DNA of 23,369 bases from a virus, in IMG/VR virus record IMGVR_UViG_3300042556_003014, positions 1 to 23,369 of that record; one strand, given 5' to 3'. The notes below the pieces were generated by a model that was not told where the DNA came from, made no database searches, and worked only from the letters and a program-made list of their open reading frames with translations. Positions within the stretch are counted from its first letter, which is position 1. Each line of letters opens with the position of its first letter. Below, piece by piece: positions 4,902-20,062 of the stretch. The translations under genes were made by a program, and so were the position numbers.

Positions 4902-5244
4902 AAGTAATTCCTTGCGTGTATACAAATTCCGTGATGCCAAAGCTCTTAAGGATCTTTTGGCAATGGACACATGGCTTTGCAAGTAACCCACCCTCACGGT
5001 AAATGTACGCTGTTGCTCCTTCTAAATCATGGCCCCTAGACAAAGCGTCTTGTATAGCTTTTGTTTCGGCATGGAAAAAACCATGATAGCCCACACCTAA
5101 AGTAGGGTGAGTCTTGTATACATTATAGCCCCTGCCCAATATTCTACGCTTGCGAGCGATTACACATCCGAGCTTGTAAGGAGCTAAAGACTTTTCACTT
5201 TCGATCTTAGCGATTCGAAGAAAAGTACACAGGGCATCTTCCAT
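4849..5244 (-). CDS. Zinc-dependent deoxycytidylate/cytidine deaminase family protein
   Basis: 131 residues from ATG 5244, which has GGAG six bases upstream and starts one base after the upstream stop; the longer open frame begins inside the neighbour and is rejected. The zinc and catalytic signature is visible as H58-A-E60 and P91-C92-x-x-C95. The family deaminates cytosine in nucleotides. In T4-type phages dCMP deaminase feeds dUMP and then dTMP for DNA synthesis, and the neighbouring MazG and UvsX genes fit nucleotide and DNA metabolism. It is shorter than T4 Cd, and substrate specificity cannot be read from the motifs. The last 53 bases overlap uvsX. Confidence 0.82.
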   Translation of the reverse strand: MEDALCTFLRIAKIESEKSLAPYKLGCVIARKRRILGRGYNVYKTHPTLGVGYHGFFHAETKAIQDALSRGHDLEGATAYIYREGGLLAKPCVHCQKILKSFGITEFVYTQGITYEPNRDSEEVKQRRVTV

Positions 5245-5245
5245 A

Positions 5246-5569
5246 TCAGGCTCCGCGCTGTTTACGCAGTTCAGCCAACCGCTTGCCCTGTGCAACACGA
5301 CCATCAGACGCTTCCATCTTGGCAATCAAAGCCTCATACTCCGTTTTGGAAGGGATGTTGCCAGCAGGTGCCTCAGCTTTGTCTGATCCGGGCCTATAAC
5401 GCCAGAGAGGGCACACATAGGACTTGCACGATCTAGCATCGGCCCGTGACCCACCCATGCAAGAGGTACAGAACAATTCAATAGCAGAAGACCGACTACC
5501 TTCGTAATCGGCCTTAAAACCATCTTTCGGGTTCTTGACTCTGACATCGTTTTCGGTGCAGTTTCTCAT
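5246..5569 (-). CDS. Cys-rich small protein, possible zinc binder
   Basis: 107 residues. The central region holds four closely spaced Cys in the order C-x-x-C (FCTSCMGG) and then C-x4-C (SCKSYVCPLW), with a further Cys near the N-terminus (RNC). This looks like a small zinc ribbon or knuckle followed by a positively charged C-terminal helix (GKRLAELRKQRG). Its stop is one base before the deaminase start. I recall similar C-x-x-C-M-G-G proteins in phage genomes, but they have no assigned function that I can name. The start ATG lies just after a short inverted repeat containing the CTATTAT element at 5578-5584 and has no good ribosome-binding site. Confidence 0.7.
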   Translation of the reverse strand: MRNCTENDVRVKNPKDGFKADYEGSRSSAIELFCTSCMGGSRADARSCKSYVCPLWRYRPGSDKAEAPAGNIPSKTEYEALIAKMEASDGRVAQGKRLAELRKQRGA

Positions 5570-5577
5570 GGTAGTCC

Positions 5578-5584
5578 ATAATAG
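5578..5584 (-). promoter_or_regulatory. CTATTAT promoter-like element in a short palindrome
   Basis: CTATTAT on the minus strand lies 8-14 bases before the ATG at 5569. It is embedded in the inverted repeat AGTCC-ATAATA-GGACT (plus strand). If transcription started 6-8 bases downstream, the message would be nearly leaderless. It could instead be a small hairpin operator. Confidence 0.4.
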
Positions 5585-5605
5585 GACTGCACCGAGCGAA
5601 ATTTC

Positions 5606-6388
5606 TCAGTAGGTCACATACTGGATCTTATCCAATGATAAGTCCCAATAAGTATAGAATTCATACGCCATGCCTGCATTGCCCCAAGGATGTTCTATCT
5701 GTGGGAATGCACCAGACTTAAATGTTAGCTCTACTACACCATCAGGGTCTGCAAAGGTTTGTAGATAGAATGGATGCTGTATGATACAAACAGCTTCTGT
5801 CCAATATTCAGGTTGTAAGCAAAGGTTCCATTCTGTAAAGTCTGTACCTCCGCTATCCCCTTGGAAGTCCAAGACACCATCAAAGGGAGCAATATATCCG
5901 TAGAAGCAATCGTCTATTGTTATGCTTGGGATTTGTGATAGGGCTAGCATATTACCATTCTCTGTGGTTGCCCAAGTCCAAGTGTACCAATTAAATCCCC
6001 AAGGTAGGCCATTCAAAGGGTTTATGGTTCCGGGATTGCCAACTTCATTTTCGGGATCGTTCCAAAAATGGGTGGGATGCAGGTTCTCATACTTACCCGC
6101 CCAACTCAAGTGCCATCTAAATTGTAATCTAACTTCTCGTAATGGAGCAGTACCTGTGTACGCAGGGAATCTTAGGAACTTAAGATCACACTCTTGATCC
6201 TGCCCGTAGTAGAACCAACAATCTTGACTTCCTTGTAACTCCACAAAATCATAATCCAAGCCATTTGTAGTAGTGGCTGGATGGCTCTGTGGGGTTATTT
6301 CAACAACCCGACCTCTTCTAATCTGGGAGATTAGGACGGGTGCTAGTACCATAAGTAGTATAACTACACCTAATAAATATTTTCTCAT
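5606..6388 (-). CDS. Exported or membrane-anchored protein, secreted-domain-like
   Basis: 260 residues. It starts MRKYLLGVVILLMVL followed by a hydrophobic run to about residue 22, a signal peptide or signal anchor with no obvious cleavage box. The mature part is beta-rich, full of aromatic residues (Trp, Tyr, Phe) and Gly/Pro loops, with four or more Cys, as in extracellular domains. Its layout loosely recalls the choice-of-anchor type domains of secreted bacterial proteins, but I cannot show a diagnostic motif. It lies directly after mazG (four-base gap) and downstream of the sulfatase-fold gene, so it may be co-expressed with both. A protein exported during infection could alter the host envelope; that is inference. 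Confidence 0.75.
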   Translation of the reverse strand: MRKYLLGVVILLMVLAPVLISQIRRGRVVEITPQSHPATTTNGLDYDFVELQGSQDCWFYYGQDQECDLKFLRFPAYTGTAPLREVRLQFRWHLSWAGKYENLHPTHFWNDPENEVGNPGTINPLNGLPWGFNWYTWTWATTENGNMLALSQIPSITIDDCFYGYIAPFDGVLDFQGDSGGTDFTEWNLCLQPEYWTEAVCIIQHPFYLQTFADPDGVVELTFKSGAFPQIEHPWGNAGMAYEFYTYWDLSLDKIQYVTY

Positions 6389-6392
6389 AATT

Positions 6393-6719
6393 TTACCTAT
6401 TGTCTCCAGACCCAGAGATCTTATTCCTAGATTGTCGGTCTGCTAACTTATCTAGGTTAGATTGAGCAATGGTGTTTAAATCAAGGTGCAAATCCGATGC
6501 TAGAGCAGAGAGATACCATAGCACATCGCCTATTTCGGCAGCTACGACCTCTCTCTCCTCTGTATTGTATACTCCGTTCTTGTCTCTTAGGATTTTTTTA
6601 ATTTTCCCACACACTTCTCCCGCCTCCGAGGCAAGACCTAGCGCAGGGTAAATAACTTCATCCTTGTAGATTGCGTACTGCTTGGCTTGTTTTTGATATT
6701 GATTAAAGTCCATGTTCAT
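6393..6719 (-). CDS. mazG: MazG-like nucleotide pyrophosphohydrolase
   Basis: 108 residues, a single MazG domain. The metal-binding signature E-x-x-E then E-x-x-D is complete: E32-A-G-E35 and E62-I-G-D65, with K39 and K41-K42 between. The family hydrolyses nucleoside triphosphates to monophosphates and pyrophosphate. Phage copies have been proposed to tune host nucleotide or (p)ppGpp pools or to clean up non-canonical dNTPs. The start overlaps the stop of the sulfatase gene (ATGA, 6716-6719); ATG at 6713 is an alternative. The downstream exported-protein gene begins four bases later. Confidence 0.9.
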   Translation of the reverse strand: MNMDFNQYQKQAKQYAIYKDEVIYPALGLASEAGEVCGKIKKILRDKNGVYNTEEREVVAAEIGDVLWYLSALASDLHLDLNTIAQSNLDKLADRQSRNKISGSGDNR

Positions 6720-8836
6720 GTAAACTCTAGGGTAGATATGTTAAATGTTCTACCTGTTTCTTGGGTATAATAGCCAGATAGCTCCACAAATTTATTCCAA
6801 GCAGAAACAGTCCTCGCATTCGGTGATGGGCCGTCAAAAGCATTTTTTAATGATGATGGCACTATACCACTTAAAGTAAATTCGTCATTTGTATAAAAAA
6901 GTAATCCCCCTTGAGGAAGGAGCGGGTTGCTTGTACTAAGTGGATTCGTGCCACTTCCAGAATATTCCCAATTTATTAAACCAGCACTAACCGTGTTTGC
7001 ACTATAGGGAGTAAAATAATTACCACTAATGGCGAGTTCTCTAGTAGTTATTTGGTGATAGGGGCCGCTAAACGCACTTGCAGCAGGATCAAGTTGAACT
7101 ATGGTTCTGTTTGATTGAGTGGTTCCAGATGTTCCTGTTTCATCTCCAATTTCCAAGAAACAGTATTTCCTGTAAGAGTTTTCATTATTATCCGTATTGG
7201 GGCTAGTTATACTTCTAAAGAAACTACTCGAATCCAAGCTCGTTACTTGTACCGCAGTTGTTTGCAAATCTGCAAGTATAGTATTAAACAAATCCATTTG
7301 TGTGACAAGTTTAGTGCTATATGTTGCAGGGGTGTTTACACGGTTACTTAATACAAGTAGAGGAACTTGCAATCCGTGCAGTCTAATATTTCTCTTAGTA
7401 TTTTGATTTCCAGCAGAGTCGGGAACCTCTGCCATGGTAGATTCATCACCATTATCCCCAATAATGAAAATATCTGTTCTATCCCAATCGACGGTTCGGA
7501 AAAGCTCTCCTAGCATCGTATCCAAGGCTTCCATTACAAAATAACCCGATTCGGCATTTGTATATGCGCCAGAAGGGAAATTTTTATAAGATGCGTTAGA
7601 AAAGTCTGAGCTTGTAACATAACCAGCAAATATGCCCCTACTAATTACATTTGCTTGAGATGAAGGTGTTAGTAACTCAAGTGGCGGCATTTGGTGAACC
7701 AAGTGAGGTGCGTTAGGGTTTATGTAAGCAAAATATCTTTCCCCCGCACTTTGTCTATCTTTTATCCATTCAATCCCGTCTTGTATACATCTCCCTGCCC
7801 AGTTTGAATATTGATCATACCCTAACTTTTTACCACGAGAAGGGAATGTGGCGCTTGTAGGAACCCCATTGTATGAATTCGTGGAATTAAAATTTTCACA
7901 CTTTGCATAAACATCAGGAATGTTTGTATGCGATGCTACTGGAGTGAACTTAACCGTCGATGGCACATACCCCAAAGGCAAATAAGAACTGTATGCATTT
8001 GATATATCCGCTTCTTGGAATGTTCCTGAAACATAAGTCACTGTATATGTGCCATCATCAAAGGATTCTACATCTTCGTAGCTATATTGAGTTTTTCCAC
8101 TTAAGCCGTAACCAGTTGCAGAACCTGTATAAGGCGTAATCCAAGGGTACGCTGTTAATCCAGCAGGATAAGTTACTCCAGCTTCAATCGCGCTAGCAAC
8201 ACCACTTGCAGCAACAGTAGCATAATTTCCTAAATAAGGCGACCCCCAAGTTACAAAATTAAAAGAGGAAGAATCAGTAGGGGCCTGATTATTATGCATT
8301 GTGCCTTTAAAATAATTAAAACCTAAGTTATTATTGTGTAAGTACCTATACGCAGGGGCTGTATGGCTTTTACCGAACATTCCCGTTTTATAGCCCAAAT
8401 TATCTTTTAAGTATCTAGGAAGAGTTAAAATGTTCGTGTCATCACTAGATGTGTCTAATTGCAGCGTGCTTGCATATTTTCCCAAATACCAAGCAGTACC
8501 TTCCTGATTTGCGTTATATCCCCTGTGTTCGAAAAGAGTTGAAATTGAACTTGGGGCTTGAAATACAGACCCCTCATCTACTAATTGCATAGTTCCGATC
8601 TTAAAAGCATGCCTACCAGTTAAAAAACTAGCTCTTGTGGTTGTACAAATAGGGTGAACGACACAAGGGAAAGCTTTACCCCGTCTAACCCACTCCGCGT
8701 CCATATTTGGGGTATTAAATACAGTTCCCCCATAAAGTGCCTGCTGCCCATCATTAAATAATTTAAACTTACGAGCGGACACATCATCAAACATTATTAC
8801 AATAATATCTCTGTCAAATCTCGGATCTGATGCCAT
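6716..8836 (-). CDS. Sulfatase-fold (alkaline phosphatase superfamily) protein with atypical active site
   Basis: 706 residues. Sulfatase landmarks appear in order: metal site FDDVS (16-20), active-site segment C64-T-T-T-R68 followed by ASFLTGRH (69-76), GKSHT (155-159), PNAPHLVH (374-381), metal site GDNGD (460-464), and LHGLQVPLLV (487-496) matching the family's RVP-type motif. The family hydrolyses sulfate esters using a formylglycine made from Cys in C-x-P/A-x-R; here the third position is Thr, so maturation or activity is uncertain. There is no signal peptide, unlike bacterial secreted sulfatases, so a virion-associated role, for example trimming sulfated polysaccharide, is possible. The region 180-340 and the last 150 residues are rich in Ser, Thr, Tyr, Asn and Gly, like virion proteins. 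It has its own promoter-like element at 8866. A phosphatase or phosphodiesterase activity is the alternative. Confidence 0.87.
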   Translation of the reverse strand: MASDPRFDRDIIVIMFDDVSARKFKLFNDGQQALYGGTVFNTPNMDAEWVRRGKAFPCVVHPICTTTRASFLTGRHAFKIGTMQLVDEGSVFQAPSSISTLFEHRGYNANQEGTAWYLGKYASTLQLDTSSDDTNILTLPRYLKDNLGYKTGMFGKSHTAPAYRYLHNNNLGFNYFKGTMHNNQAPTDSSSFNFVTWGSPYLGNYATVAASGVASAIEAGVTYPAGLTAYPWITPYTGSATGYGLSGKTQYSYEDVESFDDGTYTVTYVSGTFQEADISNAYSSYLPLGYVPSTVKFTPVASHTNIPDVYAKCENFNSTNSYNGVPTSATFPSRGKKLGYDQYSNWAGRCIQDGIEWIKDRQSAGERYFAYINPNAPHLVHQMPPLELLTPSSQANVISRGIFAGYVTSSDFSNASYKNFPSGAYTNAESGYFVMEALDTMLGELFRTVDWDRTDIFIIGDNGDESTMAEVPDSAGNQNTKRNIRLHGLQVPLLVLSNRVNTPATYSTKLVTQMDLFNTILADLQTTAVQVTSLDSSSFFRSITSPNTDNNENSYRKYCFLEIGDETGTSGTTQSNRTIVQLDPAASAFSGPYHQITTRELAISGNYFTPYSANTVSAGLINWEYSGSGTNPLSTSNPLLPQGGLLFYTNDEFTLSGIVPSSLKNAFDGPSPNARTVSAWNKFVELSGYYTQETGRTFNISTLEFT

Positions 8837-8872: not shown

Positions 8873-8880
8873 TCCATATT

Positions 8881-8923
8881 TAAATAAAAAGGTAGGAAGA
8901 GCGCACGATCCTCTCTCCCTACC
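8881..8923 (-). terminator. Rho-independent terminator ending the glycan operon
   Basis: On the minus strand GGTAGGGAGAG (8913-8923) pairs along all 11 positions, with one G-U, with CTCTTCCTACC (8891-8901) around an 11-base loop. TTTTTATTTA follows. It lies about 40 bases past the stop of the epimerase gene. Just upstream, GGGTAGGGTAGGG gives three G tracts. The 3' arm (GGTAGGAAGAG on the plus strand) is also present in the inter-tRNA hairpin. Confidence 0.88.
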
Positions 8924-8960
8924 CTACCCTATTCAGGGTTGAACTATGACGGTCCCAAAG

Positions 8961-9935
8961 TTATATACGGGACTTCACCTGTGTGTTCACCCAACTATAT
9001 GTTTTTTTCATGCCTTCAATTAGAGGTTGTGTCGGTTTCCAACCTAACTCCTTGTGAATTAAGGTGTTATCACTATTTCTACCCCGTACACCTTGTGGCC
9101 CCGGTATGTTTTTAATTGATAAAGTCTTACCTGATATGCCTATTACCATTTTGGCTAAATCATTAATACTTATCATTTCATCAGATCCAATGTTTACAGG
9201 CCCTGTAACCTCAGATTCCATTAGACGCAACACACCTTCTACACACTCATCAATGTACAAGAAAGATCTAGTCTGTATACCATCTCCCCATATCTCGATG
9301 CTTGTGCCATCTACAGCTTCTGCAACTTTTCTACATACAGCGGCAGGAGCTTTTTCCTTTCCACCTTGCCAAGTGCCCTCTGGCCCAAAGATATTATGGA
9401 ATCTAGCGATTCTGACTTGCAAGCCATGATTACGAGCAAAAGCTAAATACAGGCGTTCGCTAAATAGCTTCTCCCACCCATATTCTGAATCTGGGGCTGC
9501 TGGGTATGCTGACTCTTCCTTACAGTTAGGATTGGTTGGATCCTCTTGATTGTATGCAGGGTACATACAGGCTGACGATGAGTAGAACACTTTCTTAACT
9601 TTTGTTTTTGTACAATATTCAACACACAAAAGGTTAATTAGGGCAGAGTTATGCATTACATTTGCATCATTTTCCCCTGTAAAAATATACCCTGCTCCAC
9701 CCATATCAGCAGCAAGTTGATATACCTCATCAAAACAATATTGTGATAAAGTATCCCAGCTTGATTGTTTTGTTAAATCCAAAACATAATTAGTTGTTTT
9801 GTCGTGAAATTGAAACCATTCATTAAATGGTTTTATATCAACACAAACAAGAATGTGACCACTAGCCAATAATTTTTTAGCTAAATGACTTCCGATGAAT
9901 CCACCAGCCCCGCAAATTAAAATTTTCTTTTTCAT
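8961..9935 (-). CDS. GDP-mannose 3,5-epimerase-like NAD-dependent sugar epimerase
   Basis: 324 residues, a complete extended short-chain dehydrogenase. The NAD site is GAGGFIGSH (9-17). The catalytic region has SSSAC (119-123, Cys123), Y152-G-W-E-K156 and GGKEKAPAAVCRK (191-203). The last of these, with QTRSFLYIDECVEGVLRL (221-238), NIGSDEM (248-254) and PGPQGVRGRNSDNT further on, follows GDP-mannose 3,5-epimerase more closely than generic UDP-glucose epimerases. The reaction would convert GDP-D-mannose to GDP-L-galactose (and GDP-gulose) in the cytoplasm, supplying a rare sugar donor. It is the last gene of the glycan operon and is less AT-rich than the genes just upstream. A closely related epimerase specificity is the alternative. 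Confidence 0.9.
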   Translation of the reverse strand: MKKKILICGAGGFIGSHLAKKLLASGHILVCVDIKPFNEWFQFHDKTTNYVLDLTKQSSWDTLSQYCFDEVYQLAADMGGAGYIFTGENDANVMHNSALINLLCVEYCTKTKVKKVFYSSSACMYPAYNQEDPTNPNCKEESAYPAAPDSEYGWEKLFSERLYLAFARNHGLQVRIARFHNIFGPEGTWQGGKEKAPAAVCRKVAEAVDGTSIEIWGDGIQTRSFLYIDECVEGVLRLMESEVTGPVNIGSDEMISINDLAKMVIGISGKTLSIKNIPGPQGVRGRNSDNTLIHKELGWKPTQPLIEGMKKTYSWVNTQVKSRI

Positions 9936-9960
9936 ATTGTTTTTTTATCTTTTTTTAGTG

Positions 9961-10788
9961 TCACAGATATTGTTTTCCAAAAGTTATCAAATCTTCATTT
10001 TTATTATCAGCAATATATTTTTCATATTGTTTAATTTTTAGTAAAGAATCATAAATTGTTTTATCGAATGATATATCTTTAACCAAAGCTGGATCTATTT
10101 TAGTTTTATTAAAATTTAAATCATTAACAACTGAGTCATATTTTTTGTTAATATTATGTACAGATTGTCCCAATCCAATATGTTCCCAATGTTTGTACCA
10201 AAGCTGTTTTAACGCATAAAATTTTACATTTATACTTTGAAAATGTAATAATCCAAACTGGCTTGTTCCAAGCTTTGGTAAACCTATTGGGGCTGTCCTA
10301 GGACAATGAATATTTATTTGCGGATATTCCTTAAACGATCCTGTTTTTTTAACTGGCATTATGAAAGATTTATAATTATTGATATAACTAGGATCTTGAC
10401 GATAATGATTTACATCATCAACAAGGTTATACCAAAAATAATGAATATCATATTTAAGATGTTCTTTCATTAATTCGTTAAAAATTTCAACAAAATTAGT
10501 AGATAATACTTCATCTGCATCCAAAGCAATTACGATATCCGCATTTTCTTTACGGCTATACTCTAACATTCTATCTCTACAATAGGTTTCATTAAATTCC
10601 CCTGATCTTTTATCGTTGATGACAGTCACCTTGCTAGATATTGTTTTTTTTATTAATTCTATAGAATCATCAGTTGAATTATCATCATAAATAATCCACT
10701 CGTCTATGGGATATTTATTCCATTGAGGTAAGATTTGAGTCAGCAATAAACTTTCATTCTTTAAAACAACATTACCATGAATTTTCAT
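9961..10788 (-). CDS. GT2-like glycosyltransferase
   Basis: 275 residues, GT-A fold. The nucleotide-sugar segment has DDNSTDDS (35-42) and the metal-binding motif is DAD (90-92, in IALDADEV). The layout and the ETYCRDRMLEY segment before the DAD resemble GT2 and related families that transfer a sugar from a nucleotide donor. Acceptor and donor cannot be read. There is no membrane segment, so it should act in the cytoplasm. The gene is strongly AT-rich and sits 12 bases after the upstream glycosyltransferase gene in the same operon. Confidence 0.85.
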   Translation of the reverse strand: MKIHGNVVLKNESLLLTQILPQWNKYPIDEWIIYDDNSTDDSIELIKKTISSKVTVINDKRSGEFNETYCRDRMLEYSRKENADIVIALDADEVLSTNFVEIFNELMKEHLKYDIHYFWYNLVDDVNHYRQDPSYINNYKSFIMPVKKTGSFKEYPQINIHCPRTAPIGLPKLGTSQFGLLHFQSINVKFYALKQLWYKHWEHIGLGQSVHNINKKYDSVVNDLNFNKTKIDPALVKDISFDKTIYDSLLKIKQYEKYIADNKNEDLITFGKQYL

Positions 10789-10800
10789 AATTAATTATTC

Positions 10801-11700
10801 CTAATAGTTAATAATAGAAGAAATGTTTTTAACATTATTTTTTTTCATATAATTTGTTAATTCAATAAAATTTTTCGTAAAAATCAAATTGTAAAATTTC
10901 TCATATTGCTGAGTTACTTCGTTTAAGGTTTTTATAATATTATTATAGTCGCACCAAATTATATGTTCGTGATAAGGTATTGATTTTTTTAATGGTACAT
11001 CTTCAGATATTACTATTACCCCATTTAATAATGCTGGTAAGACTCTCAATTCTTCAAATGTATGATGGTGATCTGTTTGATGAATATTAACCATTATCTT
11101 AGTTTGACCATATAAATTTTTAAGGTCATTTTTTGAAAACACATTATCGAAATTTTTTATATTTAATTTATCTAATAAAAATTCTCTTCTCTGACTTGAA
11201 TTTCTTGAAAATAAACTGATACTTCTATGTCTTCCAGAGTTAACTAAATTTACATCATCATAAATCAATGGAGAAATGTATTTACATTTTTTAGAATAAG
11301 ATTTAATTTTTTCTGTAGGGCACTCCTCACAATTAATAATGTTTGGATTACTATATTCTATAACATGATCTAGGGAATTATAATAATTAAAATTTGGGAT
11401 CCTGACAAGGTATTTTTTTTCATTATCAGAAGTAAAAATGTTGCCTGTTATTTTTTCTTCTACAGATCTACCTCCTTCTAAAACTAAAGTATGTTCGTAT
11501 TGAACATCTATTCTTATAACCTTGTTGTCATTTTTAAAATCAAAATTTAAATTTCCAAATATGATATTAATTTTACTATTACATTTTCTCATCTCATCCA
11601 ACAATAATTTAATACAATAATTATAATATTCAGAAATATGAATACCTTGAAGATCATCAAACAACAAAAAAGATCCATTAATATTTATTAGATTTAACAA
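10801..11700 (-). CDS. Glycosyltransferase-like protein (GT-B type), start uncertain
   Basis: The C-terminal half looks like a GT-B nucleotide-binding domain: a short motif MVNIHQTDHHHTFEELRVLPALLNG is split here as MVNIHQTDHHH and FEELRVLPALLNG, followed by VIVISEDVPL. This matches the Glyco_trans_1-type pattern where a conserved Glu binds the donor and an alternative acceptor loop precedes it. Start: the frame is open to a TTG at 11772 deep inside the upstream gene and has no ATG until about codon 61. TTG at 11700 or 11667 are possible. A TAATG stop-start at 11676-11680 lies one base out of frame, separated by a run of six T. I give the TTG at 11700. Strongly AT-rich. Confidence 0.7.
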   Translation of the reverse strand: MLNLININGSFLLFDDLQGIHISEYYNYCIKLLLDEMRKCNSKINIIFGNLNFDFKNDNKVIRIDVQYEHTLVLEGGRSVEEKITGNIFTSDNEKKYLVRIPNFNYYNSLDHVIEYSNPNIINCEECPTEKIKSYSKKCKYISPLIYDDVNLVNSGRHRSISLFSRNSSQRREFLLDKLNIKNFDNVFSKNDLKNLYGQTKIMVNIHQTDHHHTFEELRVLPALLNGVIVISEDVPLKKSIPYHEHIIWCDYNNIIKTLNEVTQQYEKFYNLIFTKNFIELTNYMKKNNVKNISSIINY

Positions 11701-13255
11701 AGTATTCGTTCCAGTAGGTATAAGTTTGGTAATCGTTAGGTGTTCCCCAACAAATATAATTTTCAACTTCAAACACTTTTACAACTAGACCACTTTTTAT
11801 ATTTTGGTTCAAAACATCATCAACATAATATTCACTGTTTGTTGTTATTTTTGATTGATAATTTTTATACAAGCCATCTAAAAAAAATTTAGCTTTTCTA
11901 AAAAACATAGTTCCAATTATTGCATGATGTTTCAATGGATCATCATATATAAATTTTTTACAGGAAACATTTTTTATATTATCATTATCATCTACTTCTA
12001 ACCACGCATAGGAGTTAGGACTAAGTTTGCTTGATTGATTATTTCTAAATGACCATACAATAACATCAATATTTTCATCATCCAACAATTTTTGAACTTT
12101 TTCAGCATCAAAATACATTGTGTTATCACAAGCTGAAATCAAAATTGGGTCTTCTAAATTAATGTTTTCGTTTTTAATTCCTAATTCACAGGTACAAGCT
12201 TGTCCCTGTGTTACTGATTGAATCGAGACAATTTTACAACTGAAGTTATTTTTCAATATAGTATCTATTGAAAAATTCTTAATATGTTCTTCAAGACAAA
12301 TAAATATTTTATTGTCGGTTGTAGGTAAACATTTGACAGCTTCCACTACCATCACATTTTGATTAATAGGAAGGAGGGGTTTTGGGACATCGTATCCTAC
12401 TTCAGAAAACCTACTTCCCTTGCCTGACATTGGCAAAACTAAAGTGGTGTTTTTAGGGCAATGGCTGCGCTTGATTTGTTTTTTAATATTATTGAAATAT
12501 TTCGACCACCCTTTATATATTTCTAAATCATACGGGGTTCCCCATTGTAACATATTTTCAATTTCAAAAATATTAACCCGTAAACCATCTTTAATTAGTA
12601 AATTATAAACCAAGCTTACATAATATTCCCCATTTAAACTAATGTCTAAATCAATTAATTGTTTGAAATATTTTTTTAAAATTTGCCCACTTTTAAAGTA
12701 GTAAGTCCCATTTGAAGCATATTCACTCATTTTATTATTTGTAAATGGCTCTTTTTCTTTTATCTCAATCAGTTCTTTATTTTTTTCCCTACAAAAAGCA
12801 TAGTTGTCAGAGCCTAACATATGGGGATGGAACCCTGTGTAACAAGCTATTGAACCATCATAATTACTCGCCCTTGCAGTTTCTATAAATTTATTAAAAT
12901 TCCAATATGTCCCATAATCACAATAACTAACAATGATTTCCTTGGTTTTTGAAATTTGGTCAGCCGCCTGTAACACGGCATACACTGGGCCTTTTTTATA
13001 TGAATCAATACCAACTATTTTTCCAAATGGACATATAGTCATCAATACCTTTTCCATATCGGTATTTCTTAAGTGATCATTATTACAAATAAACACAACA
13101 TCTGTAACTCCCGAAAAAAGATTAAGTACATGGTGAATTATTGGTAATCCATCTACTTCAATTAATGGCTTTGGTCTGTCATATCCTGCATCCAAAAAGC
13201 GTTTGCCAGTTCCAGACATCGGGATAATAAGCTGAATATTATCGGCAACCTTCAT
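11678..13255 (-). CDS. Tandem double nucleotidyltransferase-family protein
   Basis: 525 residues made of two copies of a sugar-nucleotidyltransferase-like domain. Copy 1 (about 8-255) has LIIPMSGTGKRF (9-20) then GYDRPKPLIEV; copy 2 (about 270-525) has LVLPMSGKGSRF (272-283) then GYDVPKPLLPI. Each copy ends with a matching block, ENMLQWGTPYDLE (233-245) and ENYICWGTPNDYQ. The G-x-G-x-R-F and P-K-P-L motifs are the nucleotide and phosphate binding elements of the NTP_transferase family, which makes NDP-sugars or NDP-alcohols from sugar phosphates. Both copies keep them, though the substrate is unknown. It overlaps the GDPD-like gene by four bases and is followed by the start-ambiguous glycosyltransferase. 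Confidence 0.86.
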   Translation of the reverse strand: MKVADNIQLIIPMSGTGKRFLDAGYDRPKPLIEVDGLPIIHHVLNLFSGVTDVVFICNNDHLRNTDMEKVLMTICPFGKIVGIDSYKKGPVYAVLQAADQISKTKEIIVSYCDYGTYWNFNKFIETARASNYDGSIACYTGFHPHMLGSDNYAFCREKNKELIEIKEKEPFTNNKMSEYASNGTYYFKSGQILKKYFKQLIDLDISLNGEYYVSLVYNLLIKDGLRVNIFEIENMLQWGTPYDLEIYKGWSKYFNNIKKQIKRSHCPKNTTLVLPMSGKGSRFSEVGYDVPKPLLPINQNVMVVEAVKCLPTTDNKIFICLEEHIKNFSIDTILKNNFSCKIVSIQSVTQGQACTCELGIKNENINLEDPILISACDNTMYFDAEKVQKLLDDENIDVIVWSFRNNQSSKLSPNSYAWLEVDDNDNIKNVSCKKFIYDDPLKHHAIIGTMFFRKAKFFLDGLYKNYQSKITTNSEYYVDDVLNQNIKSGLVVKVFEVENYICWGTPNDYQTYTYWNEYFVKSNKY

Positions 13256-13716
13256 AGATATATACCTTTAAGTTTATTGGTATAATCTGTGCAAATTCCA
13301 GCTACGCGATCCTTGTGCTTGAAACTGTTGATATCATCCATACTGATTAGTGGTACAATACAGGATGTATAGTCCGTAATCAATGATATGTCGTGAACCC
13401 ATAGGTAGTAAGGATGGATTAAAGAAAATGGATCTGAAACATGGCAAAAAAAACGAAACGCTCCGCACTCATTAATGATAGAAGCTGCTCGAAGATCTTT
13501 ACAATGAATCCAAAGTCTATCGCGTCTATCATATAACCATGATAAGTTGATGTGATGGTTTGGATAATCATGACCTAGATATAGTTCATTGTCAATACAT
13601 CTAAGGTCGATCTCAACATCAAACCCAACACGAATTGCCTTGTCAATGTATGCTGGACTATTCTCTTGAGTTAGATCAGGCCCATCAAGATTGCCTCTAT
13701 GTGACACGATGATCAT
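13252..13716 (-). CDS. GDPD-like (glycerophosphodiester phosphodiesterase fold) protein
   Basis: 154 residues, shorter than the usual 230-250 for the family. Residues SHRGN (5-9, His6 and Arg7), ENS (18-20), VEIDLR (34-39, Glu35 and Asp37) and LGHD (47-50, His49) match the N-terminal catalytic core of GDPD-like TIM barrels. The C-terminal half is compressed. The family cleaves phosphodiesters such as glycerophosphodiesters; in this context it could act on a nucleotide- or lipid-linked phosphodiester intermediate, but that is inference. The stop overlaps the start of the double nucleotidyltransferase and the start overlaps the HAD gene stop, each by four bases. GC content looks higher than in the genes on either side. 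Confidence 0.78.
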   Translation of the reverse strand: MIIVSHRGNLDGPDLTQENSPAYIDKAIRVGFDVEIDLRCIDNELYLGHDYPNHHINLSWLYDRRDRLWIHCKDLRAASIINECGAFRFFCHVSDPFSLIHPYYLWVHDISLITDYTSCIVPLISMDDINSFKHKDRVAGICTDYTNKLKGIYL

Positions 13717-14015
13717 AGTTCTTCTATCCTAATACTTTTGTCTTCTACAAATATATCATAGTACGGCTTGTCACAGTATAGCTCATGATATTTGGCTCCC
13801 CATTGACTAAGCTGCTGTTTGGTAAGAGCAGTCCAGTCTATGCCAGATCTGCTACCTCTTGCAGTCCAATAGACAATTCGATTGCCTTCGTCATAAAGCT
13901 TATTTATCTTACTGATGTTTGTTTTATTGGGAATAGCTAAAGCATACTGTCGTTCGCCATCATAGAAGCAAATAGTTTCATCAATATCAACATATATTAT
14001 TTTTGTTTGTTTCAT
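13713..14015 (-). CDS. Small HAD-superfamily phosphatase-like protein
   Basis: 100 residues, compact. Motif I is D10-I-D12-E-T (nucleophile D10 and D12), motif II is YWTARG with Thr51, a likely motif III Lys is K83, and E91-D92 in FVEDKS sits where motif IV acid residues fall. This matches small HAD proteins found in sugar and capsule gene clusters, which remove phosphate from phosphorylated intermediates. It overlaps the aldolase upstream and the GDPD-like gene downstream by four bases each, which argues that the three act in one pathway. Substrate unknown. Confidence 0.82.
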   Translation of the reverse strand: MKQTKIIYVDIDETICFYDGERQYALAIPNKTNISKINKLYDEGNRIVYWTARGSRSGIDWTALTKQQLSQWGAKYHELYCDKPYYDIFVEDKSIRIEEL

Positions 14016-14692
14016 ATATTTTTTCTATATTTTTCTCTTTCATCATTTTCTAAATCTAATATTTGTTTTTCATTAAGAAAGGTTGGAAATTCTGCCATGC
14101 TCATAACCCCATTAAAAATTTCTGCTGATTTATCACATATTTCAGTAATTGTAATAGCTTCAGAAAAACTATTAGCACAACAGATGATACCGTGATTTTG
14201 CAACAAAATTAATCTAGGAAATTCATTATTTTCTTGTTCATATTTTGTTACTTGAAAACATATTTGCTCAAACAAATCTTTACCCGGATTTGCGTAAGGA
14301 ACAACGCATGATTTTTTTCCATTAAACACAACCTGATCTGGGAACATTCTTTTTGATGAAAAAATATTAGTATTTTTTTCAGAACACAATATTTTCATTA
14401 CATTTGTAGGGTGTGTATGCGCTATAACTTTGAATTTAGTATTTTTTAATAACCAAGAATGAAAGCCAACTTCTATACTAGGTCGTTTATTATTTTCAAA
14501 TTTTTTTAAAGAATCATTTAGATCACAAATTACTAAAGATTCTTCGGTAATTTCTGAAAGTTTATACCCACTGCACTTAATAACAAAATTAGTATCATTA
14601 AACTTCCAAGAAATATTACCTTCTGCACCAACTACAAATTTGGACATTTTTTTGTTAAATTTTATAAAATCAAACATTAGTGAATTATTCAT
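14012..14692 (-). CDS. Class II aldolase/adducin family protein
   Basis: 226 residues, the usual length for L-fuculose-phosphate or ribulose-phosphate epimerase/aldolase relatives. Visible motifs are AEGNIS (23-28, phosphate-binding region), E74 in SIEVGFH (catalytic acid/base), H92 and H94 in AHTHPTN (zinc ligands) and H167 in LQNHG (third zinc ligand). The complete metal set suggests an active enzyme. Members cleave or form bonds in sugar phosphates using zinc, or act as epimerases or decarboxylases. It overlaps the kinase upstream by eight bases and the HAD gene downstream by four, so a kinase-aldolase-phosphatase pathway is likely. Strongly AT-rich. Confidence 0.85.
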   Translation of the reverse strand: MNNSLMFDFIKFNKKMSKFVVGAEGNISWKFNDTNFVIKCSGYKLSEITEESLVICDLNDSLKKFENNKRPSIEVGFHSWLLKNTKFKVIAHTHPTNVMKILCSEKNTNIFSSKRMFPDQVVFNGKKSCVVPYANPGKDLFEQICFQVTKYEQENNEFPRLILLQNHGIICCANSFSEAITITEICDKSAEIFNGVMSMAEFPTFLNEKQILDLENDEREKYRKNI

Positions 14693-15452
14693 TTATCAAA
14701 GTTAAAATTAAATGTGTTAAAAAAGCATAATATTCCGTAGACGCTAATCTATTTTTAAATAAAATTTTATTGTATAAAAAACAATTCTCTATTACAAAAT
14801 AATTTTTATAGTCTGGGAAAGCTTCTAAAAAATATGAGAGATTGAAACTGCTTTTTATAAAAATAAATAAACTAGTGTGATCCCATTTACTAATATCTAT
14901 AGTATTAGCATCATTATCAGAAAAAAAATTTATTATTAAATCTGCTTTATATTTTTGGGGTTCTATGTATTTTATGTAATCTGCTTTTCTAATTTTTAAC
15001 TGTTCTAATACTTTTTCAACTGAATATCCTCTCTTAGTTACATCCCTATTAATTTTCCAATGGCGTTTCAATGCATCAGAAGTATTCATGTAGATTTTAA
15101 AATCAAATAAATAATCAGAACAATATAAAGAATGTAAACCACAACAAACTAAAATATCATTAGGATATATAATTTTTTCTTCTGTAAACTGCCCGGAAGA
15201 ATGATCATAATCTCTTCTACTTACTATTTTATTATTTTTTAAATCTTTTAAATCTTGTTCTAATAGCTCTAAAAAATTTGCAGAAGGATTTAAATGAGTT
15301 ATATTTTTCCAATTACTATCTTTTCTAGGCCACTTATGGTATCTATCACATTCTAAAATAGTGCATGATTTCAAAGAATTAGACAACATCTTTGATAGTG
15401 TTGTTTTTCCACTAGCTGAATCCCCTGCTATTCCTACTATTTTATTAATCAT
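14685..15452 (-). CDS. Uridine kinase/phosphoribulokinase-like kinase
   Basis: 255 residues. The P-loop is GDSASGKT (10-17) near the N-terminus, followed by ECDRYHKW, NPSANF, YDHSSGQF and the late segment RDVTKRGYS, which match the uridine kinase/phosphoribulokinase layout, including the arginines near the lid. The family moves phosphate from ATP to the hydroxyl of a nucleoside or sugar. The substrate here is probably a small sugar or polyol feeding the adjacent aldolase, but this cannot be proven. The start immediately follows the methyltransferase stop (TAAATG). No ribosome-binding site is visible, so translational coupling is likely. Strongly AT-rich. Confidence 0.83.
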   Translation of the reverse strand: MINKIVGIAGDSASGKTTLSKMLSNSLKSCTILECDRYHKWPRKDSNWKNITHLNPSANFLELLEQDLKDLKNNKIVSRRDYDHSSGQFTEEKIIYPNDILVCCGLHSLYCSDYLFDFKIYMNTSDALKRHWKINRDVTKRGYSVEKVLEQLKIRKADYIKYIEPQKYKADLIINFFSDNDANTIDISKWDHTSLFIFIKSSFNLSYFLEAFPDYKNYFVIENCFLYNKILFKNRLASTEYYAFLTHLILTLINE

Positions 15453-16064
15453 TTATTTTTTTATTATTATACACAATTTTTCATTTAATTCAAATTTACA
15501 AGTTTTAATATTTTCATTAATATAATCACAACTTTCTTTGGAAATTTTATTAGTTTTTATTTTTCCTTCATTAACCATATTTTTTATTATGCTGCTATTA
15601 ACTACATGAAGATCCTCTATGAAGTAAACACCTCCATTTTCTAGTTTAGGAAATAAAACTGATAATGAAGTTAATATAGCTTGCTCTTCATGGCATCCAT
15701 CATCAATGATGAATTTAAATTTAGGTTTATCGTCTATGTATGCTTTCAATTCAGCTTCACTTGTCTGATCAACAATACCTATGTGAATTTTTTCAGATGC
15801 TTCTTGTGTACAATCAACAATGTCTATTCCAAAATAGTTTGAATTTTTAAAATATTCAGACCATGCTTTTATGGAAGCTCCGGGAAAATAAGGACACCAT
15901 AATCCGATTTCTAATAAATTAATTGGTTCATTCCTAAATTGATCCATGTACATTTCATATATGGAAGTATAGTTATGTGCTATATTATGGTTTGAATTTT
16001 TATGGCAGAAGAAAGAACCTTTATCTCCTCCATGTTTATTAAAAATTTCTGTTAATGTTTTCAT
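15453..16064 (-). CDS. SAM-dependent methyltransferase-like protein
   Basis: 203 residues from ATG 16064, which has AAAGGAAA upstream and leaves a 13-base gap to the previous gene; the longer frame overlaps that gene and is rejected. N-terminal LTEIFNKHGGDKG (4-16) and LLEIGLW (50-56, SAM motif I) followed by FGIDIVD (78-84, acidic end of strand 2) and FIIDDGCHEE later are typical of sugar O-methyltransferases related to the macrocin-O-methyltransferase/cephalosporin hydroxylase group. The likely role is to methylate a sugar in the glycan made by the cluster. AT-rich. Confidence 0.82.
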   Translation of the reverse strand: MKTLTEIFNKHGGDKGSFFCHKNSNHNIAHNYTSIYEMYMDQFRNEPINLLEIGLWCPYFPGASIKAWSEYFKNSNYFGIDIVDCTQEASEKIHIGIVDQTSEAELKAYIDDKPKFKFIIDDGCHEEQAILTSLSVLFPKLENGGVYFIEDLHVVNSSIIKNMVNEGKIKTNKISKESCDYINENIKTCKFELNEKLCIIIKK

Positions 16065-16077
16065 TTTTTTATTTCCT

Positions 16078-16833
16078 TTAATATAAATCTTTAGTATTTT
16101 CAGTTTTTTGTTGAACTTTTTTAACAAAAAAAGTTTTCAAATTATCATATACATTTACATTCCAAGTATCATAGTGATTTAATGTTAAATCTATACAATT
16201 CCCATCAATAGCCCCACAATCTCTATGTTCATTTAATTCAAATAAAATTCTTGCTAGATATCTTTCAGATGCACAACTTTCCCATCTTCTTAAAACTACT
16301 ATAGAAGTTAGATATGAGTACAGTTGTTTAACCTTTATAGAATCTACTACAAAACTAGAACACCAACAAAAATTAATTTTGTCCCAATGATCATTCATTC
16401 CTAATTTAGTCATTACTGGAATAACAACATCGGAACATTCTCCATCAGCATACATAGAGTTTATAGGTCTAGCATAAATGTTATTATTAAACATATTACT
16501 AAAATCGTATTTGTTTTTTAGAATAAAAGTATCTTGAGTGAAAATATAATACTTATAATCATTCAATAAATTTTTTTCTAAAATATAATTGATACCTACT
16601 TGATATGCTCCCAACTCAAATTTGGATTGTATATTATTATCCAAAAATATAACATTATCAATATGGCTTAATTTATTAAAGATATCATCCTTATGTAATG
16701 AATTGTTATCGACAACAATTGTTAAAGCCTCAGGATAGCATTTTTTTATATTGCTTATATAATATTCTAAATAAGATTCATAACCCCTAAAATATTTATG
16801 AGCTATTATGAAACAAACTTTGTTAACATTCAT
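16078..16833 (-). CDS. Glycosyltransferase-like protein (GT-A type)
   Basis: 251 residues. The N-terminal beta-alpha pattern CFIIAHKYF and TIVVDNNS (38-45), with FTQDTFIL later, looks like a GT-A nucleotide-sugar transferase, but the match is weaker than for the GT2 genes nearby: the central acidic motif is QDT rather than D-x-D. It overlaps the GT61-like gene upstream by 11 bases and precedes the methyltransferase. Function in glycan assembly is inferred from context. AT-rich. Confidence 0.68.
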   Translation of the reverse strand: MNVNKVCFIIAHKYFRGYESYLEYYISNIKKCYPEALTIVVDNNSLHKDDIFNKLSHIDNVIFLDNNIQSKFELGAYQVGINYILEKNLLNDYKYYIFTQDTFILKNKYDFSNMFNNNIYARPINSMYADGECSDVVIPVMTKLGMNDHWDKINFCWCSSFVVDSIKVKQLYSYLTSIVVLRRWESCASERYLARILFELNEHRDCGAIDGNCIDLTLNHYDTWNVNVYDNLKTFFVKKVQQKTENTKDLY

Positions 16834-17971
16834 AATTAAAAAAAACCTCCTTGAAAGTTTCTAAATTTATTTTCCATTCTGAATTAAGTCCATTATCTAA
16901 TGGACATATACTTGATTTATTAACTAAAAGAGTTTCATAATTCACTTTTGAATTCCAGCCAGCCAGATTATCATAGCTGAACATAACTAATACTTCATCA
17001 TCAAAAATTTCTATTATTTCTCCAACTACATCTTTTGTTAGAACTCTTACTCTCATATTTTTTTTTAATTTTTCTGTATTGGAATGGGAGCAATCAAAAA
17101 AATATTTGGTTGTTACATTTTTAAAGCTATGAACAAATCTACCATTCACAGTTAAAAATTCTGGGGAAACAATACATAATAACTTTGTTTCTTTTTGTGA
17201 AAATAATACATTACACAGTCCTCCCCCTATAGGACCGATAACATGACTACAATTTTTAAATAATTTTATTTTTTCTGTCGTACTTAATAGCTCTGTAAAA
17301 ACTTCAGTATAGCCATTTTTTACCAGAAAATCAACTAAAGAATCTTCATTAATTAGTTTTCTCCGTTGAGTATAGTCTGTTCCTATGTTGTTATAATTTC
17401 CATGAATATGAGATCTTCTTGAAACATATATTTTTTTAGAATTAGATTTATCAATTTTTACATCTTGAATCATATTTGAAAAAAAATCATATATTTTATT
17501 ATCTGGAATTTGTAACTCATTATTAGTATATGATTTAGAAACAAATAATGTTTCATAAATTGTTGAGTCATTTACTAATATTAAATCACTACTAAAAATA
17601 TTCAATAACTCAAAAAACTCCAAAACAAAAGTATTAAATTTAGTTGTTCCTTTTGGATAATTAACTAATAATTTTAAATTAGGATATTCTTTTTTTAATT
17701 CACTATAAGTTATTAAATAAGGAAGAGTATCATAAACAAAATGGTAATAATTATCAAAATTATATATAAAATAAAATAATGGAGTTTTTTCTGTATTCTT
17801 ATGTTTTTTTAATGTAGTGTTATCTTTATTTAAGGTAACACTTGATAAAGACATTATTTTTTCTTTGACAGGAAAATCATACTTGTTATTATAAAAAGAA
17901 TAGATTTTAGGATCTGGATAAGCGGTTAGATTTTCTACGAACTGAACATTTATTAATTTTGTAAATGTCAT
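16823..17971 (-). CDS. GT61-family glycosyltransferase with C-terminal SH3-like extension
   Basis: 382 residues. The GT61 (DUF563) pattern is clear: YYHFVYDTLP (75-84), IYVSRRSH (181-188), RRKLINED (203-210) and HVIGPIGGGLCNVLF (243-257, donor-binding glycine loop). Family members act in plant xylan, eukaryotic O-GlcNAc (EOGT) and bacterial capsule synthesis. After residue 300 there is an extra segment (about 304-352, with MRVRVLTKDVVGEIIEIF and then DDEVLVMF) that resembles a small SH3-like or KOW-like beta barrel; this is unusual for the family. It overlaps neighbours on both sides by 4 and 11 bases. AT-rich. Confidence 0.85.
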   Translation of the reverse strand: MTFTKLINVQFVENLTAYPDPKIYSFYNNKYDFPVKEKIMSLSSVTLNKDNTTLKKHKNTEKTPLFYFIYNFDNYYHFVYDTLPYLITYSELKKEYPNLKLLVNYPKGTTKFNTFVLEFFELLNIFSSDLILVNDSTIYETLFVSKSYTNNELQIPDNKIYDFFSNMIQDVKIDKSNSKKIYVSRRSHIHGNYNNIGTDYTQRRKLINEDSLVDFLVKNGYTEVFTELLSTTEKIKLFKNCSHVIGPIGGGLCNVLFSQKETKLLCIVSPEFLTVNGRFVHSFKNVTTKYFFDCSHSNTEKLKKNMRVRVLTKDVVGEIIEIFDDEVLVMFSYDNLAGWNSKVNYETLLVNKSSICPLDNGLNSEWKINLETFKEVFFNYEC

Positions 17972-18723
17972 AATTGGTCTTTTCTATTCCAATAAAATTG
18001 TTCTACTGTATGAAGTTTTGGTGTTATATTTTTACATATAACATTTTTATTCATTATTCCATAATTTTTACCATTACTGTTATCAATAGTATATTTTTCA
18101 TTATTAATAAAATCGTAATTAAATTTAGAATATTTAGAATTTGCTTTTTTCATACCTATCAAACAATTATTATGATCTACATGATTTATTATTCCATGTA
18201 AAAATAAATTAGGGATAGTCTTTCCTTTACTTATTTCACCAAATCTCCACTCAAAATCACCGTCTTCTTCTCCTATACTTAATAATCTTTCATCAAACCA
18301 GCCTACTTCATTTACAACTCTTCTATCTAATAATATATGGCTCCAACTAGAATTTATTTTAAACATTGTAAGCCCCTTTTCCATATACGATTCTAGTTCA
18401 TTAAAAAAAATGTCTGATGTTATAGAAATATCATCATTTAAAGATAATACTAAATGATTACTAGAATTTATCAGTAGATTATTCCATAACTTAGATAATC
18501 CCCTAAAATTAGGGTACATAGTTATATAAACATTTTCTTTATCTGCTAGAAATTGTAAAATATTTTTTCTATAATCCTGATCAAATTTTTGTTCATGCTC
18601 TCCGTTAATAGCCACTAATATTTCTACTTCTGGTCTAAATTTTTTTATTTGGTTAAGGAGAGGCTTTAACCAAGTTTCAAATCTATACTTATAAGTAGTA
18701 ATAGTTATTGAATATTTATTCAT
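17968..18723 (-). CDS. GT2-like glycosyltransferase
   Basis: 251 residues, GT-A fold. The start MNKYSITITTYKYRF gives the first beta strand, and LSLNDDIS (94-101) supplies the acidic metal-binding motif as N-D-D. The later GWFDERLLSIGEEDGDFEWR segment is typical of the GT2 acceptor side. It starts the sub-operon downstream of the CTATTAT element at 18754-18760 and overlaps the GT61 gene by four bases. Donor and acceptor unknown. AT-rich. Confidence 0.82.
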   Translation of the reverse strand: MNKYSITITTYKYRFETWLKPLLNQIKKFRPEVEILVAINGEHEQKFDQDYRKNILQFLADKENVYITMYPNFRGLSKLWNNLLINSSNHLVLSLNDDISITSDIFFNELESYMEKGLTMFKINSSWSHILLDRRVVNEVGWFDERLLSIGEEDGDFEWRFGEISKGKTIPNLFLHGIINHVDHNNCLIGMKKANSKYSKFNYDFINNEKYTIDNSNGKNYGIMNKNVICKNITPKLHTVEQFYWNRKDQL

Positions 18724-18753
18724 AAATATAAATTATTTTATACTCTTAAATAT

Positions 18754-18760
18754 ATAATAG
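18754..18760 (-). promoter_or_regulatory. CTATTAT promoter-like element inside the glycan block
   Basis: CTATTATATATTTAAG on the minus strand lies about 31 bases before the ATG at 18723, in the only long gap (65 bases) inside the glycan block. A T4-like TATAAAATA lies slightly further on. It may start a second transcript for the AT-rich part of the block. Confidence 0.5.
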
Positions 18761-18788
18761 TACATTGGTTCAAAAATATATAGTTTTT

Positions 18789-19481
18789 TCATTTATTTAA
18801 TTCTCTAATTTCACAATCTTCTAACCATTGTTTATTTCTAGTTTCTGGGTTAGTGCTAAGACCTGTTGGGTTAGAATAATAACTTCCTAAATATTCCTCA
18901 ACTCTCATAAATTTTTTACCAGCTTTAGATATTCTTAACCACATGTCATAATCACCTGACATAGTATATTTTTGGTTAAATCCGCCTAACTCTTTAATTG
19001 TTTGTTTTTTAAGTAATGGGAAAGGACCACCATAACAAGCTTTTAATAACTCCTGATGGTCATGCACTTTAGGAAAACTATAAAAAGAACTTAATTTATC
19101 ATGTTTTTCTGAATAAGTTATGAAAGCATTTTGATAAAAAATATCTACACTTGGATATTTTTTTATATATCCAATCAAGGTAGTTAAAGCTGCTGGAAAA
19201 AGTCTATCGTCAGTATTGTAGTTCATCACATAGTCAGTTTCGGAATTATGTATCGCTATATTCCAAGCATCATATAGTCCAACTCTAGTTTTATATTCTA
19301 GTATTTTTACTTCTATTCCTTCTCTAAATTTAAAATTTTTAATTTTATGTAAGGAATCATCAGATGAATTTGCATCTATAAATACTATAAAAAATTTATC
19401 TAAAAATTGTTGATTAACACTTTCTAAATACCCATCAATCCATTTAGTAGAATTGTAATTAGAACAAATTAAAGTAATCAT
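18789..19481 (-). CDS. GT2-family glycosyltransferase
   Basis: 230 residues from ATG 19481, which overlaps the upstream stop (ATGA) and has GGAGGGG just before it; the longer frame is rejected. Features are the first strand TLICSNYNS (3-11), FIDANSSDDS (34-43, nucleotide-binding), NYNTDDR (87-93, metal-binding D-D) and later GGPFPLL and SGDYDMWLR, a standard GT2 pattern. Members add sugars from nucleotide donors. It is the third gene of the block. AT-rich. Confidence 0.88.
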   Translation of the reverse strand: MITLICSNYNSTKWIDGYLESVNQQFLDKFFIVFIDANSSDDSLHKIKNFKFREGIEVKILEYKTRVGLYDAWNIAIHNSETDYVMNYNTDDRLFPAALTTLIGYIKKYPSVDIFYQNAFITYSEKHDKLSSFYSFPKVHDHQELLKACYGGPFPLLKKQTIKELGGFNQKYTMSGDYDMWLRISKAGKKFMRVEEYLGSYYSNPTGLSTNPETRNKQWLEDCEIRELNK

Positions 19482-20062
19482 AAGCCCCTCCCATTTGTTC
19501 CATCTAATTTTGGCCGTACTAGATATAAAATTTGATTGTACCAATTAACCTTGCTACCAAGAGTGTGTAAAATTGATACATGATTAAAATCTGTATAATT
19601 AGGATCTTTTCCTCCTATTCCTTTATAAAAAGGAACAATAAATAATAGTTCTGTTTTGTATGTTGGAACAGCTATATTCCCCGGAACTACTCCTAGCTCT
19701 GGTTGCGTGCATAACGCGATTCCATTGTTCAATTTTAGTCCGGGTATCCATATGTCAACTTGAGGATTGGCTTGAACAGACCTACGCATAAAATCGCCAG
19801 CACCTACAACAAACTCATCGTCATCGTCTAATAGACAAAAATAGGGTGTTGAACAGGCATATGCCCCCATATTGATAGCGGCACTTCCATACTTATCATA
19901 ACGCATACCTGTTTTGAGGTAAGTAACCCCCCTAGGCAAAGTTTTAATAGGGAGATCTACTGCATCAGCAACTACTATCACATTATCAAATTCTCTCTTA
20001 GCAGATAGTATTGCATCCTTTAAACTAGGTCTACCAATAGTTCTTATTAATACGCTAATCAT
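19478..20062 (-). CDS. GT2-like glycosyltransferase, short
   Basis: 194 residues from ATG 20062, which overlaps the upstream stop (ATGA); the frame also opens at a TTG five codons earlier. The start VLIRTIGRPSL (4-14) with GRP is typical of GT2, and LLDDDDE (77-83) supplies the metal-binding acids. It is shorter than most GT2 proteins and ends soon after a segment with GGKD and HVSILH, so it may be a compact or partly reduced form. It overlaps both neighbours by four bases. Confidence 0.8.
   Translation of the reverse strand: MISVLIRTIGRPSLKDAILSAKREFDNVIVVADAVDLPIKTLPRGVTYLKTGMRYDKYGSAAINMGAYACSTPYFCLLDDDDEFVVGAGDFMRRSVQANPQVDIWIPGLKLNNGIALCTQPELGVVPGNIAVPTYKTELLFIVPFYKGIGGKDPNYTDFNHVSILHTLGSKVNWYNQILYLVRPKLDGTNGRGL

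Follow-up and report, generated by a model that had tools for sequence, protein, structure and literature searches.

A leaderless S1-type sulfatase gene in a phage genome, with a threonine variant of the active-site box and a possible place in the virion

An intact open reading frame of 706 codons (P0001), read from 8836 to 6716 on the minus strand of the window (the whole 23,369-nt stretch of DNA analysed here), codes for a protein that, judged by its fold, phylogeny, and catalytic set and not by its signature, is a phage sulfatase of the S1 type. These grounds are used because the strict [PA] signature pattern fails. The interpretation put forward, with a probability of roughly 0.5, is that of a formylglycine (FGly) sulfatase that is matured by the host, acts on a sulfated surface glycan, and is probably virion-borne; we infer the FGly, the activity, the substrate, and the presence in the particle. 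That P0001 is an active S1-type sulfatase is, taken by itself, predicted with considerable confidence. The source contig is an IMG/VR virus record with phage replication genes, and the gene span given in the initial annotation, 6716-8836, coincides exactly with the bounds of the open reading frame.

A complete catalytic set around a variant box

P0001 matches the Pfam family PF00884 (Sulfatase) with 74.5 bits, where the cut-off is 25. In alignments with cellular sulfatases, 10 of 10 catalytic and metal-binding residues are kept (D17, D18, C64, R68, K156, H158, H378, D461, N462, and K481). The Ca-binding pair of the sulfatase core, Asp17-Asp18 (8783..8788, on the minus strand like all sites in this paragraph), is invariant, as are His378 of an APH motif (7703..7705), the Ca-binding Asp461-Asn462 of a GDNG motif (7451..7456), and the substrate-binding Lys481 (7394..7396). 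K156-S-H158 (8363..8371) reads GKSH in place of the usual GKWH, with K and H invariant. The Ca ligands Asp-Asp and Asp-Asn and the active-site Lys, His, His, and Lys expected of S1 enzymes are all present. The active-site box, C64-T-T-T-R68 (8633..8647), is evident from the translation and the alignments, and combines the predicted FGly precursor Cys64 (Cys or Ser in S1 enzymes) with an Arg four residues on, both invariant. Its sole departure from the S1 signature is Thr66, which replaces Pro at position 3, where the updated PROSITE-type pattern has Pro or Ala. The initial annotation had pointed to this Thr amid otherwise intact metal- and phosphate-binding motifs, and the direct reading of C64-T65-T66-T67-R68, together with the invariance of the ten residues, bears this out.

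Threonine at position 3

In SulfAtlas, position 3 of the S1 box is Pro in 87% of 4058 sequences, with Ala as the main substitute and each other residue below 1% (PMC5066984). The view that the segment should read C-x-P/A-x-R nevertheless does not hold as a rule, as CTTTR recurs in more than 100 cellular sulfatases. The pattern CTTTRAx[hydrophobic]2TG, scanned in the 84,980 prokaryote species genomes of GTDB, is found in at least 120 stretches; of the 81 loci L064-L144, among them the viral contig L064, 78 have a box-bearing ORF, nearly all with the other sulfatase motifs, and CxTxR sulfatases amount to more than 100 distinct ORFs in all. Carriers of CTTTR include gammaproteobacterial lipoprotein sulfatases of the clade to which P0001 itself belongs. 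In six sulfatase-bearing genomes, each chosen for having one CTTTR-type copy, raw pattern counts at position 3 are Pro 127, Ala 21, and Thr 9, and six of the nine Thr come from the very copies for which the genomes were chosen; in three of the six genomes, the best PF00884 matches have Pro 27, Ala 3, Ser 1, and Gln 1 at this position. Judged from these sequences, normal sulfatases include a minor, lineage-bound variant with Thr at position 3, so that no Thr mechanism is called for. A sizeable set of natural enzymes has Thr for the Pro of the CxPxR signature and is overlooked by strict signature-based annotation; no paper on CTTTR or CxTxR boxes, or on viral arylsulfatases as auxiliary genes, was found in the open-access papers searched. 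The only other viral contig found with a CTTTRA box, L064, has a signal-like N-terminus; it groups with other bacterial sulfatases and was ruled out as close kin of P0001.

With a box that lies outside the strict signature at position 3, and in a superfamily that is promiscuous, P0001 might be thought a phosphatase or phosphodiesterase with a sulfatase fold in which Cys or Thr acts directly and no formylglycine is used, and a Ser/Thr-type mechanism of this kind had been suggested at the outset. PyuS, for one, is a CxPxR sulfatase that is active on phosphate esters as well (PMC8746622), and a choline sulfatase with an unmodified Cys shows slow turnover (PMC6189696), both of which count in favor of this idea. 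Against it stand the S1 residues that P0001 retains, namely Cys, Arg, two Lys, two His, and the Ca ligands, and the commonness of CTTTR in sulfatases of ordinary architecture, members of the same clade included. Furthermore, where PF00884 proteins do have a Thr nucleophile, it replaces the Cys, in a TXNXE box, and does not stand at position 3 (PMC5066984). P0001 has no Thr nucleophile in a TXNXE box; its nucleophile position is Cys64 in CTTTR. With the nucleophile Cys and all its partner residues in place, and the Thr common to many cellular sulfatases, the suggestion finds no support, and an enzyme working without FGly is considered very improbable.

Fold and phylogeny

The predicted structure of P0001 is confident only in the core (mean pLDDT 53.5); its best Foldseek matches in the PDB are carrageenan sulfatases (E 1.3e-15), with a probability of 1.00 to S1 structures. 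PF00884 and Foldseek thus both assign the alkaline-phosphatase-superfamily sulfatase fold, and Foldseek does so more strongly for L185 (IMGVR_UViG_3300033067_000628, a 73.7-kb contig), which harbors the only viral sister of P0001 found (26% identity, E 7e-16). The L185 model (pLDDT 86.8, pTM 0.92) is a complete sulfatase, matching carbohydrate sulfatases with E 1e-26 and TM 0.77. In a library of predicted viral structures, the only protein that P0001 matches significantly is a sulfatase of Yasminevirus, a giant virus.

The search for close relatives yielded none in bacterial genomes, and tblastn of the INPHARED phages gave no relative of P0001; for the other sulfatases, most INPHARED matches are fecal contigs that lack annotation or records of bacterial appearance. 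In sulfatase-bearing gammaproteobacterial genomes, the best profile matches are lipoprotein sulfatases that are themselves CTTTR. Among 299 Pseudomonadota genomes searched at 1e-15, two have a match, namely this CTTTR lipoprotein type and the L205/L206 pair, lipoprotein sulfatases with the boxes CSPSR/CTPSR. At L206 (2-883 and 826-3057), the cellular relative of P0001 has an overlapping FGE-like ORF directly after it.

A maximum-likelihood tree pairs P0001 with the viral L185 (support 97/93) and places the pair inside a clade with both lipoprotein groups (support 100/97); in a tree without P0001, L185 alone still joins the lipoprotein clade (support 99). The pairing is a long-branch grouping, and the branch order is less sure than the clade because the branches are long. 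Profile-profile comparison (hhalign) gives E 1.7e-38 over residues 7-565 of P0001.

Termini, insertion, and composition

No signal peptide or lipobox, the mark of an exported bacterial sulfatase, is found in P0001. Maximum hydropathy over 15 residues within the first 45 is 0.8, against 1.8-2.9 in seven of the eight exported relatives checked; for the eighth, L108, the ORF that was measured begins upstream of the lipoprotein start. A second phage, L063, carries a near-identical copy of the gene, in which three codons (SIT) precede the ATG, with a stop before them, so that a longer N-terminus is impossible there. The low hydropathy and this lack of room uphold the earlier statement that there is no signal peptide.

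Two regions depart from the sulfatase norm. The first is an insertion of residues 182-340 (7817..8293, minus strand), between H158 and H378, which faces a gap in L185 and in YHYH-type sulfatases and has a pLDDT mostly below 50. The second is a divergent, polar C-terminal region, residues 566-706 (6719..7141, minus strand), which hhalign leaves unaligned. The low-complexity, virion-like C-terminus described in the initial annotation is not what the composition shows: over its last 166 residues, P0001 has a Shannon entropy of 3.6-3.9 bits, no different from ordinary sulfatases, and the region is instead polar (45% S/T/N/G/Q) and divergent. As a whole, P0001 is the most polar of the large proteins of the window (39% STNGQ, 16% charged). 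The virion proteins around the L185 sulfatase have 31-39% STNGQ, and because the exported relatives L143 and L108 also reach 36%, this content is weak evidence for a virion protein.

Such divergence, with a large insertion and an unalignable C-terminus, could be that of a catalytically dead sulfatase fold that serves the particle by binding sugar or as a structural part. Between the two phage variants, dN/dS is about 0.5 overall and about 1 in residues 201-530, on few changes, which cluster in the insertion and the C-terminal third. The first 200 codons, however, are identical, and neither phage lineage has lost any of the ten catalytic residues; a dead enzyme is rated as unlikely as one without FGly, or scarcely less so.

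Gene neighbourhood and cassette exchange

Recognizable phage genes in the window include UvsX (3924-4997), a gp32-like single-strand DNA-binding protein (21984-22760), a weak UvsY-like match (22773-23213), and three tRNAs. A MazG-like pyrophosphatase gene (6393..6719, minus strand) starts within the sulfatase stop, overlapping by four bases, and is followed by a gene for a 260-aa protein with an N-terminal hydrophobic segment (5606..6388, minus strand) that has no family match and is kept together with the sulfatase in L063. Sulfatase and MazG are likely on the same transcript, and the overlap speaks for co-transcription with non-structural genes; the position of the sulfatase beside MazG, UvsX, and glycan genes further suggests that it is expressed early or in the middle phase. 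A T4-like late promoter (TTTAAATA) upstream of P0001 was considered and dropped, such sites being no commoner than chance in the window. As none of the genes in the 23,369 nt is structural, the window itself gives no evidence for a virion protein.

Upstream of the sulfatase lies an exchangeable glycan cassette (8968..20058, minus strand) of glycosyltransferases, an NTP transferase, an epimerase, a class II aldolase, and a kinase, recognized by Pfam matches, GC content, and the breaks in homology to L063, and separate from the sulfatase unit. L063 shares the flanks of the window at 95-98% DNA identity, but homology is lost over the 11-kb block from 8968 to 20059, in whose place L063 has another set of glycosyltransferase-type genes. 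The break falls at gene borders, 132 bases before the sulfatase start. In the kept part, between cassette and sulfatase, RNA folding predicts a terminator-like hairpin (8875..8945, minus strand) of 13 stacked pairs followed by U5 (-26.7 kcal/mol, z -3.57); a simple consensus terminator scan lists none at this place. GC content is 28% in the cassette, 39.7% in the sulfatase, and 42.5% in the remaining window, and P0001 is 97% identical to the L063 copy despite the full exchange of the cassette. On account of its core-like GC and its retention across the exchange, the sulfatase is a stable gene of the phage, and the cassette at its side a swappable one. This cassette is in its own right an 11-kb, swappable surface-glycan island in a phage genome (8968-20058). 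Its core (11678-15452) encodes a protein that has two NTP-transferase domains, a class II aldolase, a kinase of the PRK type, and a small protein matching phrog_1238 (phosphoheptose isomerase), a gene content which suggests that an unusual activated sugar or polyol is made.

These surroundings bear on the possibility that P0001 is an active FGly enzyme of the infected cell's cytosol that acts on sulfated metabolites or glycan precursors, in sulfate scavenging or in editing the sugars of the neighbouring cassette, and is never packaged. The absent leader, the overlap with MazG, the replication and metabolism genes nearby, and the fact that the sulfatase borders a glycan cassette in both phages are all consistent with this notion. 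Conversely, no sulfotransferase was found by Pfam among the cassette genes of the window, and with the cassette swapped in L063 and a hairpin in between, the sulfatase is not serving one particular glycan pathway.

Viral relatives and the place of action

The leaderless sulfatase of L185 matches phrog_19870; its gene lies in a stretch of very large genes, and its two neighbours there code for 339 and 1727 aa. On either side of it, proteins encoded in this stretch, five in total, match PHROG families annotated as 'virion structural protein', and the contig, that of a contractile-tailed phage, also has tail sheath and baseplate wedge genes. Location in a structural or tail module is thus seen for L185 and not for P0001 within the window, and is a single example. 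A different context is found in L250, a 150.8-kb viral contig, where a leaderless sulfatase lies in a glycosyltransferase cassette with two Sulfotransfer_2 genes; this favours an intracellular role for the L250 enzyme and lends support to such a role for P0001. Both roles therefore have a possible precedent, in the virion module of L185 and in the glycan cassette of L250. With the sulfatase flanked by the Sulfotransfer_2 genes (L250:3891-4463, 5238-6623, 7994-8584), one virus has genes for both the addition and the removal of sulfate. A further leaderless phage sulfatase (L251:2187-3548; box CTPSR, phrog_19870) adjoins a phage peptidase gene (phrog_16701).

The placement of the sister enzyme of L185 among virion genes tips the balance: a virion-borne P0001 is given somewhat less than even odds, and an intracellular one is possible at roughly one chance in three. 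The leaderless L185 relative among virion genes and the fold matches to carbohydrate sulfatases lend indirect support to the virion-borne enzyme for sulfated polysaccharides first proposed; the window contributes no structural gene.

Maturation and mechanism

Bacterial FGE and anSME work in the cytosol, and cytosolic sulfatases exist. A leaderless enzyme can therefore be matured by the host, and a missing leader alone is no sign of a virion protein. No FGE gene is present on the four phage records, which are possibly fragments, so that maturation would depend on the host. Cys64 would most likely be oxidized to formylglycine by host FGE or anSME in the cytosol, after which the Ca-bound FGly hydrate would attack sulfate esters. 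As in other S1 enzymes, K156, H158, H378, and K481 would bind the substrate and protonate it. The S1 mechanism is assumed because every participating residue is present. The substrate would most likely be a sulfated sugar of the host envelope or of the surrounding polysaccharide, reached probably as a component of the virion or after lysis and not via the Sec pathway.

With the closest viral relative of P0001 among virion structural genes, it may be that certain phages have particles equipped with enzymes that remove sulfate. A broader and more tentative proposal, held at a little under even odds, is that phages have a deep-branching lineage of leaderless, host-matured virion sulfatases that desulfate host surface polysaccharide at adsorption. 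If particle-borne sulfatases exist, sulfated capsules and slimes would be a barrier that phages open by removing sulfate. Infection by such a phage would then hinge on a host enzyme that makes formylglycine, and it is unusual for infectivity to depend on a modification by the host. In the open-access full texts searched, no paper was found that joins a phage sulfatase with tail fiber and depolymerase.

Comparison with known systems

The best PDB matches in sequence and fold are S1_19 carrageenan sulfatases (6bia/6b0j, 6prm/6psm, and 9hh2) and an S1_16 enzyme (9fo1). They are about 15% identical to P0001 and 20-25% to L185 and do not have the P0001 insertion, and the box of 6bia is C-G-P-S-R, with Pro where it was checked, in contrast to CTTTR. 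Gammaproteobacterial lipoprotein sulfatases with a C-terminal YHYH-containing region (Thalassotalea L143, Thalassomonas L133, Catenovulum L108, Saccharophagus L123, and others) share with P0001 the CTTTRA box, all catalytic residues, and the clade, at 24-29% identity, but differ in their lipoprotein signals, their extra C-terminal region, and the lack of the insertion of about 150 residues. The L185 sulfatase is, like P0001, leaderless with DD[VI]SxxK near the N-terminus, whereas it is shorter (431-439 aa), has a CGPTR box and no insertion, and is encoded inside a virion module. Known virion-borne glycan enzymes of phages, such as tail depolymerases and deacetylases, cleave or deacetylate their substrates. 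Particle-borne sulfatases would be a counterpart of tail depolymerases and, if the inferred location holds, P0001 would likewise act on surface glycan at adsorption, as do the virion-borne phage enzymes that modify polysaccharides.
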